DNA from: Thalassotalea sp.
Lineage (GTDB): Bacteria > Pseudomonadota > Gammaproteobacteria > Enterobacterales > Alteromonadaceae
DNA: 64,000 bases
Assembly (NCBI GenBank): GCA_029237915.1
Contig: JAQWHD010000016.1
Span: forward strand, 1 to 64,000
Reading direction: 5' to 3'
The notes under the pieces are model-generated. The model worked only from the letters and a program-made list of their open reading frames with translations, made no database searches and had not been told where the DNA came from. A program made the position numbers and the translations under genes. Below, piece by piece: positions 42,834 to 52,459 of this stretch. Within the stretch, counting starts at the first letter, position 1; every line of letters starts with the position of its first letter.

Positions 42834-42847
42834 TGATATCGTTATCA
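42834..42847. promoter_or_regulatory. Putative LacI-family operator TGATATCGTTATCA
   Basis: 14-bp imperfect palindrome with central CG in the divergent sulfatase/DUF1800 intergenic region; shares TGAyAnCGnTrTCA with 48644-48657. Confidence 0.65.
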
Positions 42848-45582: not shown

Positions 45583-45748
45583 ATACCAATTTCATTAATT
45601 AAGTGAACTATGTTTTCATGAGAAAAAATGGATAAATACAAGGCATAAAATTTAGTAAGTAGTTATTCTACTTATAAATTTAATAACGCAGTAGTTATTC
45701 ATTTTAGCCATTAAAAGTGAGCAGTAAATTAACGAACTTGGTATTATG
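45581..45748. repeat. MITE/REP-like element with imperfect terminal inverted repeats and internal hairpins
   Basis: Left TTATACCAATTTCATTAATTAAGTGA, right (rc) ATAATACCAAGTTCGTTAATTTACTG; internal AAATTTAGTAAGTAG/CTACTTATAAATTT and AATAAC/GTTATT hairpins. Confidence 0.6.
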
Positions 45749-46754
45749 CTTTTAAACTAGTTGAGTTTCTCAGTACAAGTTTACATGGAAACTGAGTTTG
45801 AACCTCAGAGTAATCTTGCTTTTGCATGTGCAAAATTAACTTTTTAACCGCGTGTTTTGCAATGTCGCATATCGGCTGTTTTACGGTAGTAATTGACGGC
45901 CAAATTTGCTGTGAAACAGGGGCATCATCATAGCCAGCGACAGACAGCTCTGAAGGTATATTAATTTTCATCTGCGCTGCAACCTTTAAAACCGCCGCAG
46001 CCATATAATCATTACAGGCAAAAATAGCCGTTGGTCGATGCTCTTGGGTTAACAGTTGGCGTGCACAAATCTCGCCTGATTCAAAAGTAAACTCACCTTG
46101 TTTTACCAACTCATCATAAACTGGCATATCAACCTCAGTTAAAGCTCTTTGATAGCCTTCAAACCTTTTTGGCGTTGCGCCAAAATCTTTATGGCCTTTG
46201 ATGATCGCGATATCAGTGTGGCCTAAAGAAATTAGAAACTTAGTAATGTCATAAGCGGCTTGTTCATCGTCTGAGCAAACAAATGGTGAATTATGATCGC
46301 GGTTAAACGGTGATATGCGAGCAAACGGGATCTTGTTATCTTCTAGTAGCTTAATCAACTCTGGGTTATCACATAATGGATGAGTCAGTAATATACCGTC
46401 TTGTCTGGCGTGAGTGATTAATGTTTCAATGTTTTGAATTAAATTTGGTTGGTTATGATCACAAGGCTGAATTTGCAAATTATAGCCTTGTTCATTGGCT
46501 TGGGCGATGGCGCCATTTTGTAACTCTAAAACATAACCTGGGTTTGGGTTAGAATATAACAAGGTAATAATAAAACTGCGTTGGCCGCGTAAGGCACTGG
46601 CCATAGGGTTTTTCTTAAAGCCTAATTCATCAACTGCTTTTTGCACTAATTCTTGCATAGCAGGGCGCACATTAGGTTCATTATTAATAACCCGTGACAC
46701 CGTTTTAACTGATACTCCAGCTAATTTTGCTACATCCTTGATGGTTGATCTCAA
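45744..46754 (-). CDS. LacI family transcriptional regulator
   Basis: MRSTIKDVAKLAGVSVKTVSRVINNEPNVRPAMQELVQKAVDELGFKKNPMASALRG HTH and hinge; periplasmic-binding-like domain. Confidence 0.96.
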   Translation of the reverse strand: MRSTIKDVAKLAGVSVKTVSRVINNEPNVRPAMQELVQKAVDELGFKKNPMASALRGQRSFIITLLYSNPNPGYVLELQNGAIAQANEQGYNLQIQPCDHNQPNLIQNIETLITHARQDGILLTHPLCDNPELIKLLEDNKIPFARISPFNRDHNSPFVCSDDEQAAYDITKFLISLGHTDIAIIKGHKDFGATPKRFEGYQRALTEVDMPVYDELVKQGEFTFESGEICARQLLTQEHRPTAIFACNDYMAAAVLKVAAQMKINIPSELSVAGYDDAPVSQQIWPSITTVKQPICDIAKHAVKKLILHMQKQDYSEVQTQFPCKLVLRNSTSLKA

Positions 46755-46854: not shown

Positions 46855-46884
46855 AAAAAAGGCTCACATAGCTATGCGAGCCTT
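46855..46884 (-). terminator. Rho-independent terminator of the minus-strand sulfatase
   Basis: AAAAAAGGCTCACATAGCTATGCGAGCCTT. Confidence 0.8.
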
Positions 46885-46909: not shown

Positions 46910-48553
46910 TTATTTGGTTTTTTGTTTTTTAGGCAAACGTTTTTTATCGTGTTTCATAAAGTCACGTAAACCGTCTTCACCATCTTCTTTTAACCAATGC
47001 TCAGGGAATTCAGCCGCTTTTGAACGACCTTCTTCACGGTAAACTGCACCAGAACTAAACTTCTCAGTAAATGGTACGGTATGTTCACCTTTATTGTTGG
47101 CTAAAAGGGTGAATAATTTGCCGCGCATTTCAACTTTAACAGCTAAATACTTAGGGTCGTCAATCAGGTTAACCATTTCTTTCGGGTCGTTCTTTAAGTC
47201 GTATAACTCTTCTGTATCCCAAACACCGTGGTATTGGATAATTTTGAAGTTATCTGAACGTAAAGCAAAGGTTGTTGGCGTAGAAGGGTAGTTAAACTCC
47301 CAGTAATATTCGTATAAGAAGTTGTTGCGCCATTCACCTTTTGCTTTGCCTTGAGCAAGGTCTAAAAAGCTTTTACCGTCAAAATGTTTAGGGCTTGCAA
47401 CACCAGCCATTTCAAGTAATGTTGGCGCGATATCAATATTAGCAACCATTTCAGTTACTACCTTACCCGCTTCTAAATAACCAGGAGCATAGGCAAGTAA
47501 AGGTACACGCATTGACTCTTCATAAGCATTACGTTTGTCGATAAGACCGTGCTCACCAAACATAAAGCCGTTGTCACCCATTAAGATAACCGTGGTGTTT
47601 TCAGTTAAATTGTTTTCTTCTAACCAAGTTAAGATACGACCTAAGCTGTCATCAACTGCGCCAATTGCTCGATGATATTGCTTTTTATAAGATTGTACGT
47701 CTAAAGAGCTATGGTAAGGAAAATCAACACCATGCCATGAGTTACGTTGGTTCTGCACCCACATTGGCTTACCTTTGCGGTTTTCAGGAGTGTCTGCTTG
47801 GCTTGCCGGTACTGGTAAGGTTACATCTTCATATAGGTTTTCATGGCGTTTAGCTGGTGAAAAGTTAGCATGAACCGCTTTATGTGAAAGGTATAGCATG
47901 AATGGCTTACTTTCATCACGTTCGGTTAACCAATCAATTGAGTAATCAGTTAGTTCATCCGTAATGTAACCAGTTTGCGGTACTCGCTTACCATTAATGT
48001 TAAATGTGTATGGCTTACCATTTGGCATAGTTTTAGGGTAGTAAATACCTTGGCCAGGGAAACTTAACCAGTAATCAAAGCCATTTTGAGGCATATCACT
48101 TACGCCATGGCCAGCAGACTCACCCATGTGCCATTTACCGATAAATGCCGTTTGGTAGCCGGCATCTTGTAAGTATTCAGGGAAGAAAATAGTACCTTCA
48201 CGAGCTGGCTTATTGTTATCTACTACCCCATGGTTGTGCATGTATTGGCCAGTTAATATTGAAGCTCGGCTTGGTGAGCAAAGTGCTGTAGTAACGAATG
48301 CATTTTTAAAGTGTATGCCTTCATTTGCTAACTTATCCATATTAGGTGTATTGAGGATAGGATTTAAAATACCTAATTCGTCATAACGTTGATCATCAGT
48401 TAGAACATAAATGATATTACGTTTTGTATTTGCTGCTTTTTCAGCGGCTTGTACTAAAGTTGTTTGACCAAACAAAGCAAACAAAGAGCTTGCCCCAAGA
48501 AGCAAAACCTTCCATGTATTACGTGTTGTTTTAGTTATATTTGATTTCAACAT
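46910..48553 (-). CDS. Sulfatase, S1 family, exported
   Basis: RNIIYVLTDDQRYDELGILNP; TTALCSPSRASILTGQYMHNHGV (CSPSR). Confidence 0.93.
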   Translation of the reverse strand: MLKSNITKTTRNTWKVLLLGASSLFALFGQTTLVQAAEKAANTKRNIIYVLTDDQRYDELGILNPILNTPNMDKLANEGIHFKNAFVTTALCSPSRASILTGQYMHNHGVVDNNKPAREGTIFFPEYLQDAGYQTAFIGKWHMGESAGHGVSDMPQNGFDYWLSFPGQGIYYPKTMPNGKPYTFNINGKRVPQTGYITDELTDYSIDWLTERDESKPFMLYLSHKAVHANFSPAKRHENLYEDVTLPVPASQADTPENRKGKPMWVQNQRNSWHGVDFPYHSSLDVQSYKKQYHRAIGAVDDSLGRILTWLEENNLTENTTVILMGDNGFMFGEHGLIDKRNAYEESMRVPLLAYAPGYLEAGKVVTEMVANIDIAPTLLEMAGVASPKHFDGKSFLDLAQGKAKGEWRNNFLYEYYWEFNYPSTPTTFALRSDNFKIIQYHGVWDTEELYDLKNDPKEMVNLIDDPKYLAVKVEMRGKLFTLLANNKGEHTVPFTEKFSSGAVYREEGRSKAAEFPEHWLKEDGEDGLRDFMKHDKKRLPKKQKTK

Positions 48554-48629
48554 TAACTCCGTAGTGAAATGTACCTATTACACTATGCCAAAAGACAAAG
48601 TTACAGGTATGATAGTAAAATATGGAATC

Positions 48630-48671
48630 ATTAAACACCCCCTTGACACCGTTGTCAAGGGGGTGTTTAAT
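48630..48671. promoter_or_regulatory. 42-bp palindromic bidirectional promoter/operator between divergent sulfatase and GH3 genes
   Basis: ATTAAACACCCCCTTGACA-CCGT-TGTCAAGGGGGTGTTTAAT: 19-bp perfect arms; each strand carries TTGACA-17 bp-TTTAAT; centre TGACACCGTTGTCA is LacI-operator-like. Confidence 0.75.
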
Positions 48672-48702
48672 GTGATCACTAATTTTTATAAGAATTATAA
48701 CT

Positions 48703-51021
48703 ATGAAATCAACAATTGCGTTACCTATTAGCACTCTGTTTATGGCGTTGAACCTGCTCTCAACCCCTGTTAAATCGGCAGATTTACTTCCTTATCAAAA
48801 TAAAGATTTATCAGCGCAGCAACGTGTCGATGACTTGATTACGCGCATGACTTTGCGAGAAAAAGCAGGACAAATGAGCCAATTTGTTGGCCTTGAACAT
48901 ATAAAAGAGTCTGAATCTAAATTAACGGCTGAGCAATTAAATAGCTCTGACGCGCATGGTTTCTATCCAGGCCTTCGTCCTGCCGATTTACTAGAGATGA
49001 TAGAAAAGAGTGAAATTGGCTCTTTTTTACATGTAGTTAATATTAAAGAAGCCAACGAATTACAAAAACACGCGATGAAGTCGCGTTTAGGTATTCCATT
49101 AATTATTGGTATTGATGCGATTCATGGTAATGCTTTAGTTAGTGGTGCAACGGTTTATCCATCGCCAATTAGTGCGGCGAGCTCGTTTAACTTAGACCTA
49201 GTTAAAAAGTCGTCCGTTGAAACAGCCAAAGAAATGCGTGCCAATGGCTCGCACTGGACCTTTACACCAAACGTAGATATTGTTCGCGATCCTCGTTGGG
49301 GCCGAGTAGGTGAAACGTTTGGTGAAGACCCATTCTTAGTAGCTAAAATGGGTGTGGCTACTGTTGAAGGTCTACAGCAAACTGATTTTAAAGGTTATGA
49401 CAAAGTAATAGCTAACGCTAAGCATTTTGTTGGTGGTGGTGACTCTATTAATGGTTTAAATATCGCACCTCTTGATGTATCCGAGCGCACCTTAAGACAA
49501 GATTACTTCCCTCCATTTAAAGAGGTGATTGATGCTGGCGTATTTACCATTATGGCAGCTCATAATGAAGTTAACGGCGTACCATCTCATGGTAATAAAT
49601 TTTTATTAAATGATGTACTTCGTGGTGAATGGGATTTCCCTGGTTTTGTGGTAAGTGACTGGCTTGATGTTGATCGCTTAAAAACCTTACATAAAGTTGT
49701 ACCAACTCATAAAGATGCAGTGCATTTAACGGTAGATTCAGGCATGGATATGAACATGCATGGCCCTCAATTTGCAGGCCCAATTATTGAGTTAGTAAAC
49801 GAAGGGCGTTTAACTGAAGAGCGAATTGACGCATCAGTTAAACCAATCTTGTTAGCTAAATTTCGTTTAGGTTTGTTTGATAATCCTTATGTCGATGAAA
49901 CGCTGCGCGATAGAGTCAACTTTAATATTGAACATCAGCAAACAGCATTAGCTATGGCCCGTGAATCGATTGTATTATTGAAAAATGACAACAATGTTTT
50001 ACCACTTAAAAATGTGAAAAATGTTTTTGTCACAGGTCCAAATGCTGATGCTCATACCATATTAGGTGATTGGTCATTACCTCAGCCTGAAGACAAGGTA
50101 ACAACTGTTTTAGAAGGTCTGCAACAGGTTAGCGCTAAAAGCATTAAACTTGATTACTTAGATGTAGGTAAACAAGTAAAAGTGTTAACGGATGAGCAAA
50201 TAAGCGAAGCCGCTGAACGTGCAAAATCTGCCGATGTTAGTATTGTTGTCGTTGGTGAAAATCCATTACGCTTTGATAATGAAGGCAAAACCTCTGGTGA
50301 AAACGTTGCTCGCGCGAACCTAGATTTATACGGTAAACAACTTGAGCTGATCAAAGCTATCCACGCAGCTGGTAAGCCAGTTATTGTGGTGTTAATCAAT
50401 GGTCGTCCGGTTTCTGAACCATGGTTAGTGGATAATGTTGACGCTATTGTTGAAGCATGGGAGCCAGGAAGTTTTGGTGGACAAGCTGTTGCCGAGATCT
50501 TATACGGTAAAGTAAACCCTAGCGCGAAAATGCCAATTTCAGTACCTTATAGTGCTGGCCACATTCAATCTATTTATAATCATAAACCATCGACTTACTT
50601 TAAACGTTACGTTGATTCACCGACTAAAAACTTATACGAATTTGGTTTTGGCTTAAGCTATAGCACATTTACTTATTCTGATTTATCAATCGATAAAAGC
50701 TCTATTAGTAAAGATGGTAGTGCCACTGTAACGGTGAAAGTCACTAATACCAGTAACGTTGCCGGCGATGAAGTTGTACAACTTTACATTAATGACAATT
50801 ACAGCCAAGTCACACGTCCTGTAAAAGAGCTAAAAGGTTTTGAACGTATATCTTTAGCTGCTAAAGAAACTAAACAAGTAAGCTTTGCAATTACTCCTGA
50901 ACTGTTAGCGTATTACAATTTAGCTATGCAGTATGGTGTTGAGGCCGGTGACTTTACTCTTATGATCGGTTCGTCATCACGCGATAGCGATTTAAAAACA
51001 ATTCAGTTAAACGTGAATTAA
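48703..51021 (+). CDS. Glycoside hydrolase family 3 (beta-glucosidase/beta-xylosidase-like), exported
   Basis: KAGQMSQF, DPRWGRVGETFGEDP, KHFVGGG, GFVVSDWLDVDRL; C-terminal FnIII-like domain. Confidence 0.94.
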   Translation: MKSTIALPISTLFMALNLLSTPVKSADLLPYQNKDLSAQQRVDDLITRMTLREKAGQMSQFVGLEHIKESESKLTAEQLNSSDAHGFYPGLRPADLLEMIEKSEIGSFLHVVNIKEANELQKHAMKSRLGIPLIIGIDAIHGNALVSGATVYPSPISAASSFNLDLVKKSSVETAKEMRANGSHWTFTPNVDIVRDPRWGRVGETFGEDPFLVAKMGVATVEGLQQTDFKGYDKVIANAKHFVGGGDSINGLNIAPLDVSERTLRQDYFPPFKEVIDAGVFTIMAAHNEVNGVPSHGNKFLLNDVLRGEWDFPGFVVSDWLDVDRLKTLHKVVPTHKDAVHLTVDSGMDMNMHGPQFAGPIIELVNEGRLTEERIDASVKPILLAKFRLGLFDNPYVDETLRDRVNFNIEHQQTALAMARESIVLLKNDNNVLPLKNVKNVFVTGPNADAHTILGDWSLPQPEDKVTTVLEGLQQVSAKSIKLDYLDVGKQVKVLTDEQISEAAERAKSADVSIVVVGENPLRFDNEGKTSGENVARANLDLYGKQLELIKAIHAAGKPVIVVLINGRPVSEPWLVDNVDAIVEAWEPGSFGGQAVAEILYGKVNPSAKMPISVPYSAGHIQSIYNHKPSTYFKRYVDSPTKNLYEFGFGLSYSTFTYSDLSIDKSSISKDGSATVTVKVTNTSNVAGDEVVQLYINDNYSQVTRPVKELKGFERISLAAKETKQVSFAITPELLAYYNLAMQYGVEAGDFTLMIGSSSRDSDLKTIQLNVN

Positions 51022-51028
51022 TAGGACT

Positions 51029-52459
51029 ATGATGAAATTTTCAAAAATTGTTAAGGCGCTTTCAGTAACTTTAGCGTGTTTGCCGTTAGCGTTAAATGCT
51101 GCCGAGCAGGTTAAGCAACCTAATATCTTATTTATCGCGGTTGATGACTTAAAGCCATTGGCGGGCGCTTATGGTGATAAACAAGTTATAACACCTAATA
51201 TTGATGCCATCGCGAACCAAGGCACTATGTTTGCCAATGCTTATTCGCAGTGGCCAGTTTGCGGGCCATCACGAATGAGTTTACTTACTGGTTTTCGACC
51301 AGAAACTAACGGTATTATGAATTTAAAAGATAATATCCGCGATGTTAACCCTGATGTTGTTACCTTGCCACAGCTGTTTAGACAAAATGGCTATGAAACG
51401 GCTGCAGTTGGTAAAATCTTTGATCCGCGTAATGTCGATAGCCGTCAAACTGACGACCCGGCTTCATGGAGCATACCTTATCAACAACCAACATCTACCG
51501 TTAAGGGCAAGCAAAAGTTAGCGGTTGAATCTTTAGAGCATCCTATTGAAAAATTTGTTGATGGTAATATTAATGCCCGTGGTATTAAGTTGCTTAAACA
51601 AATGGCTAATAAAGATAAACCTTTCTTTTTAGCTATTGGTTATAAACGTCCACATTTACCATTTACCGCGCCAAAACAGTTTTTTGACTTATACAATCCA
51701 GCTGATTTTACTTTAGAGCCTTTTCAACAAGCGCCTAAGAATAGTAATCCCAAGTATATTTTAAATAACAATGGCGAAATGCGCACGTATAAGCCAACCC
51801 CAAAAGCGGGTGAAAAGATTAAACCTTACCCTAAAGGTGCCTTTTCAGAGGCGCATCAGCGTGAGCTTATTCATGGCTACTATGCAGCGGTGAGCTTTGT
51901 TGATAGTTTAGTCGGTGATTTAATGGCCGAGCTAGAAAAAACTGGTGAAGCAGATAATACCATTATTGTCTTTTGGGGCGATCATGGCTTCCACTTAGGT
52001 GACCATGGGATGTGGGGCAAACATACCACTATGGAAAAAGCCAATCATGTACCACTTATTATTAAGCTTCCTGGTCAAAAAACTAGCGTTTATAACAAAC
52101 CGGTTGGTTTAATGGATATCTTCCCAACGCTTACTGAATTAGCTAAGTTAAAAGCTCCTAAAGGTTTGCAGGGAGATTCATTAGTCCCAGCTATAAATGA
52201 GTTACCTGAATCAAAACAACCAGTAGCAATTAGCCAGTACAAACGCGGCGGTGCTTTTGGTTATTCTATGCGTACAGAAAACTATCGGTACACTGAATGG
52301 TTAAGCAAGCATAAGAAAGTTGTGTATCGTGATTTATACGACATGACGAATGATCCAGGTGAAACTGTTAACGTAGTTGATGACGCAAAATATAAAGACG
52401 TTGCCGCTAAATTAGCTAAGCTTTTACGCGAAAACTCTTCTGGATTGAAACGCTTATAA
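51029..52459 (+). CDS. Sulfatase, S1 family, iduronate-2-sulfatase-like
   Basis: NILFIAVDDLKPLAGAYGD; WPVCGPSRMSLLTGFRPETNGI (CGPSR); follows GH3 by 7 nt (operon). Confidence 0.92.
   Translation: MMKFSKIVKALSVTLACLPLALNAAEQVKQPNILFIAVDDLKPLAGAYGDKQVITPNIDAIANQGTMFANAYSQWPVCGPSRMSLLTGFRPETNGIMNLKDNIRDVNPDVVTLPQLFRQNGYETAAVGKIFDPRNVDSRQTDDPASWSIPYQQPTSTVKGKQKLAVESLEHPIEKFVDGNINARGIKLLKQMANKDKPFFLAIGYKRPHLPFTAPKQFFDLYNPADFTLEPFQQAPKNSNPKYILNNNGEMRTYKPTPKAGEKIKPYPKGAFSEAHQRELIHGYYAAVSFVDSLVGDLMAELEKTGEADNTIIVFWGDHGFHLGDHGMWGKHTTMEKANHVPLIIKLPGQKTSVYNKPVGLMDIFPTLTELAKLKAPKGLQGDSLVPAINELPESKQPVAISQYKRGGAFGYSMRTENYRYTEWLSKHKKVVYRDLYDMTNDPGETVNVVDDAKYKDVAAKLAKLLRENSSGLKRL

Follow-up and report, generated by a model that had tools for sequence, protein, structure and literature searches.

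A predicted mirror-symmetric divergent promoter with a LacI-type operator and covarying spacers between GH3 and sulfatase genes of Thalassotalea

In local sugar regulons of the LacI family, the operator motifs measure 16-22 bp and are located 30-140 bp upstream of genes for sugar use (Ravcheev et al. 2014, PMC4052901). In E. coli, bidirectional promoters share a -10 element, and their transcription starts are about 10-23 bp, usually 18 bp, apart (Warman et al., PMC12825309). Template switching, in turn, has been described to create and maintain perfect inverted repeats with multi-base paired changes in RNA genes (Monttinen and Loytynoja 2022, PMC8794818). The intergenic element analysed here resembles the LacI-family sites in its even palindromic operator with a central CG, in its distance from the genes for sugar use and in having a regulator gene in the same cluster, but its symmetry extends over 44 bp and spans the predicted -35 and -10 elements of two promoters. 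It is similar to the E. coli bidirectional promoters in that divergent transcription, which is predicted in our case, would be achieved through sequence symmetry at one site. In contrast to them, the two predicted promoters adjoin at their -35 sides; a bidirectional promoter with a shared -10 element was rejected, because the element has two separate -10 boxes and predicted starts about 55 bp apart, both outside the palindrome. Like template-switch hairpins, the element is a perfect inverted repeat with multi-base paired changes, but not in an RNA gene: it is predicted to be a divergent promoter and to lie in untranscribed DNA. As judged from sequence, it would best be described as a local repressor site of the LacI family joined to two promoters that stand back to back. 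A literature search among open-access papers found no description of such a mirrored promoter/operator architecture.

The analysed window is a 64,000-nucleotide stretch of a Thalassotalea sp. genome of 3.22 Mb. The original prediction had pointed to a 42-bp palindrome with 19-bp perfect arms at 48630-48671. Re-reading of this sequence (ATTAAACACCCCCTTGACA-CCGT-TGTCAAGGGGGTGTTTAAT) confirmed the palindrome and extended it by one outer C/G pair, to 20-bp perfect arms around the 4-nt centre CCGT, which is itself not symmetric (48629..48672; no strand is assigned to the palindrome, its spacers or the operators). It is the longest perfect hairpin of the window, with runners-up having 15-bp arms. 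Arms in twenty shuffles of the window did not exceed 11 bp, and the observed 20 bp are thus beyond chance. The inner pattern of the palindrome is found at no other place in the window, where 0 occurrences are expected, or in the entire genome. The repeat finder find_repeats does not list the palindrome, even in a 301-base region, so that this tool can miss perfect inverted repeats of such length.

The palindrome lies between two divergent genes, a GH3 glycoside hydrolase gene (48703..51021, + strand, Pfam PF00933 and PF01915) and a sulfatase gene (46910..48553, - strand, Pfam PF00884). Directly 3' of the GH3 gene, after a gap of 7 nt, follows another sulfatase gene (51029..52459, + strand, Pfam PF00884, syntenic in five species), which is probably on one transcript with GH3. 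The proposed repressor is encoded by a LacI-family gene with a TTG start (45744..46754, - strand, Pfam PF00356 and PF13377). The positions originally given for the GH3, divergent sulfatase and LacI genes were found to be accurate. A GH10 gene and several sulfatase genes are also present, which suggests a cluster for the use of a sulfated polysaccharide. Between the divergent sulfatase gene and lacI, we noted a terminator-like hairpin (46859-46884, - strand), and a weak promoter-like site upstream of lacI (46797-46769). Given these two features, lacI may be transcribed separately.

The sequence TTGACA-17-TTTAAT, claimed for each strand in the original prediction, was located by position on both. 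Towards GH3, the predicted -35 box TTGACA is at 48643..48648 and the -10-like box TTTAAT at 48666..48671 (+ strand); towards the sulfatase, the corresponding boxes are at 48653..48658 and 48630..48635 (- strand). With a 17-bp spacer in each case, both strands carry conserved -35 and -10 boxes within the 16-18 bp spacing of a back-to-back sigma-70 pair. TTTAAT agrees with the -10 consensus in 5 of 6 positions, with T instead of A at position 2. The consensus promoter scan requires this A, and for that reason did not list TTGACA-17-TTTAAT. The putative LacI-family operator TTGACACCGTTGTCAA is located at 48643..48658, and its half-sites coincide with the two -35 boxes. It is even, 16 bp long and has CG at its centre; the central operator proposed originally, TGACACCGTTGTCA, likewise fits the even, CG-centred form of the family. 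Conservation of TTGACA could be due to the predicted operator alone.

In order to follow the element across the genus, we used 17 genomes; the analysed genome falls into one genus group with Thalassomonas sp. M1454. The element was present in five of them (G000, the analysed genome; G109, which is M1454; G106, G102 and G101), always between the same divergent GH3 and sulfatase genes. When aligned with GH3 to the right, the outer ATTAAA, the central TTGACACCGTTGTCAA, the outer TTTAAT and the 17-bp spacing are invariant in all five species; most other intergenic DNA has diverged. The start codon of GH3 lies 43-46 nt from the operator throughout, and the CCGT centre, the only asymmetric feature, is never reversed with respect to GH3. 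Alignment of the region in related genomes had been suggested as a check of the original prediction, and the TTTAAT hexamers and the operator withstood it. Invariant hexamers, fixed spacing and a constant operator core argue for a promoter/operator, since a hairpin alone would keep the pairing, but not the letters. The pattern is the footprint of two putative TTGACA-17-TTTAAT promoters, presumably active, that would share one LacI-type operator and its bound repressor.

The spacers between the boxes behave differently. The left 7-bp spacer (48636..48642) is mirror-complementary to the right one (48659..48665), and its sequence differs in every species (CACCCCC, TACTGTC, TACGCTC and TACCTTA in four of them). 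Nevertheless, the spacers are fully complementary to the opposite arm in four of the five species (28/28 pairs), with five pair positions changed on both sides. Paired multi-base changes combined with perfect arms, as expected of template-switch inverted repeats, are thus found in four species. The observed covariation was reached in 0 of 500 shuffles, a count that is not a strict probability, because the five species are related. We also simulated the descent of a palindromic ancestor along the protein tree, with the two arms evolving independently, and none of 40,000 runs reached 28/28 at any of five rates. The fifth species, G101, lacks the paired changes: only 3 of 7 spacer pairs match, but both predicted promoters and the operator are kept, which indicates that the symmetry is not essential. 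The symmetric promoter/operator of the original prediction is therefore supported by the five-species comparison, but the whole 42-bp palindrome is not required for it, and the long arms have to be explained separately. In single-promoter operators of the same clusters, the symmetry does not extend outwards (matches at 2-6 of 13 outer positions), which argues that such an extension is no requirement of LacI binding. Other LacI-type operators, taken as controls, had 2-7 matches in 13 outer positions.

Beyond the genus, two genomes of the same family (G199, G279) contain TTATAA-N6-TTGACACCGGTGTCAA-N6-TTATAA. The 40-bp arms are perfectly symmetric in both, and the site is flanked on one side by a LacI-type gene and on the other by a gene that, by sequence reading, is uronate isomerase-like or mannitol-dehydrogenase-like. 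A close relative of G199, G304, has the same predicted promoters with unsymmetric spacers. In these three genomes, the -10 boxes are TATAAC or TATAAA at 17 bp. This mirrored architecture of other genera, with TATAAC-type -10 boxes and the same pairing of a LacI-type gene with a uronate isomerase-like or mannitol-dehydrogenase-like gene, is located at positions 1501-1540 of loci L101, L102 and L106, two of which have perfectly symmetric 40-bp arms. At L098, L107 (1501-1540) and similar loci in several genomes of the family, mirrored -10 boxes at 16 or 17 bp surround TTGACACCGGTGTCAA with partly symmetric arms, between two divergent genes, one of them oxidoreductase-like by sequence. Locus L105 was rejected as a mirrored promoter; it is a hairpin between convergent genes and a chance match to the pattern. 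A class-wide search of 369 genomes recovered the mirrored pattern only in the analysed genome, and an order-wide operator search of 395 genomes gave seven sites and no additional perfect arms. The DNA around 55 more distant GH3 relatives contained no such operator. At the sensitivity of the 369-genome search, the arrangement does not seem to extend beyond the family.

The distribution of the proposed regulator follows that of the element. All four other element-bearing genomes encode, about 2 kb from the element, a close ortholog of the LacI protein (73-91% identity), so that the ortholog is found in 5 of 5 genomes with the element versus 0 of 10 tested genomes without it, where the best LacI identity was 44%. 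Its recognition helix SVKTVSRVINNEPNVRPAMQ is identical in all five species. A linked and co-occurring cognate regulator, as is typical for a LacI-family regulon, is thus present. Each cluster contains further operators, for example TGATAACGATGTCA and TGATATCGTTGTCA, which we infer to belong to the neighbouring LacI protein. In many cases, a TATGCT-like -10 box comes next, so that TTGATA or TTGACA of the operator is the -35 box. The regulon thus seems to place its operators on -35 boxes habitually, with the divergent site as the two-sided version. A second operator-like site in the window, TGATATCGTTATCA (42834..42847), precedes the sulfatase-GH10 genes, and its conservation in M1454 (L002 278) suggests a small regulon. 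In sister species, single-direction operators with a conserved GTATGCTA-like -10 box were observed in L002 (9835, 11702), L148 (13577, 15628), L149 (3534, 5465) and L150 (3188, 5159), so that the operator once more doubles as the -35 box; the genes at these sites were not seen beside GH3 in the window. Four sister species also encode a LacI paralog (59-62% identical) about 25 kb from the site (G109:C32:148914, G102:C1:2300853, G106:C1:852576, G101:C1:3594571), which was not found in the analysed genome.

We consider it probable (about 0.8) that the element is a repressible divergent promoter pair which shares a LacI-family operator, and that its arms have been homogenised by template switching during replication. 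Two sigma-70-type promoters would stand back to back around the 16-bp operator, with each half-site doubling as a -35 box. A single dimer of the LacI protein encoded at 45744-46754 could then cover both -35 boxes and silence both GH3, probably with its downstream sulfatase gene, in the rightward direction and the sulfatase gene in the leftward direction. A sugar from the target polysaccharide would presumably free the repressor. The symmetric -35 and -10 boxes would by themselves form a near-palindrome, and thus a substrate for template-switch mutations, so that switching between the arms could repeatedly copy one arm onto the other. On this reading, the letters of the 7-bp filler are as such unconstrained, and its mirror pairing is most probably due to template switching. 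Such switching would explain the paired filler changes, the free choice of filler letters, and why symmetry may be lacking while the promoters are kept. Unsymmetric spacers as in G101 and G304 are to be expected if the symmetry is a by-product.

Paired changes of this kind would result from selection on symmetry just as from template switching, and the five species are neither numerous nor closely related enough for the single mutational events behind them to be told apart. The promoter/operator could thus be as described, but with the spacer symmetry selected, either because a cruciform or hairpin serves as a second switch, extruded for example under negative supercoiling between the two active divergent promoters, or because both promoters have to be equally strong. 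Perfect pairing kept through two-sided changes in four species, a very stable single-strand fold of the palindrome (z about -10) and the renewed occurrence of symmetric arms in G199 and G279 fit this possibility. Nonetheless, we regard it as unlikely, because G101 and G304 keep their predicted promoters with unsymmetric spacers, and because the single-promoter operators of the same clusters do without extended symmetry. That the perfect arms are a supercoil-sensitive cruciform or hairpin which switches both promoters, preserved by compensatory selection and with a separate origin in the other genera, appears quite improbable. Also doubtful, and to be held at low probability, is control of the divergent promoter/operator by a LacI-family protein other than the neighbour. 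The genome does encode at least five such proteins, and four relatives have the 59-62% paralog, but the occurrence of the site is matched by the neighbouring ortholog alone, and the analysed genome has the site without having the paralog.

A role of the hairpin in RNA, as a terminator, an attenuator or a 5'-UTR stem of transcripts that start upstream, seems very improbable to us, even though the stem is perfect and covarying and weak promoter-like sites exist on the + strand (48585-48613 and 48592-48621). These sites are not conserved in the other species, the predicted transcripts begin outside the palindrome, and pairing in RNA would not need invariant TTGACA and TTTAAT letters. An RNA terminator had been named as the alternative that could overturn the original prediction, and it fares poorly: the flanking genes are divergent, neither arm is followed by a T-run, and the terminator scan did not list the palindrome. 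An intrinsic (bidirectional) terminator was rejected on these grounds. A known structured RNA was rejected as well, since all Rfam matches were far below the gathering scores (best match 27.7 bits versus 72 needed).

Compensatory changes commonly count as proof that an RNA stem is functional. In the present element, covariation is found in promoter-spacer DNA that is predicted to be untranscribed, and the one species without it keeps the predicted promoters. The locus therefore offers a clean natural case in which to ask whether template switching alone can produce the covariation signature, and its filler, changing and yet mirror-symmetric, bears on how such palindromes are kept. For the organism, the element would be a compact, repressible and symmetric divergent promoter for enzymes that are predicted to act on one polysaccharide.
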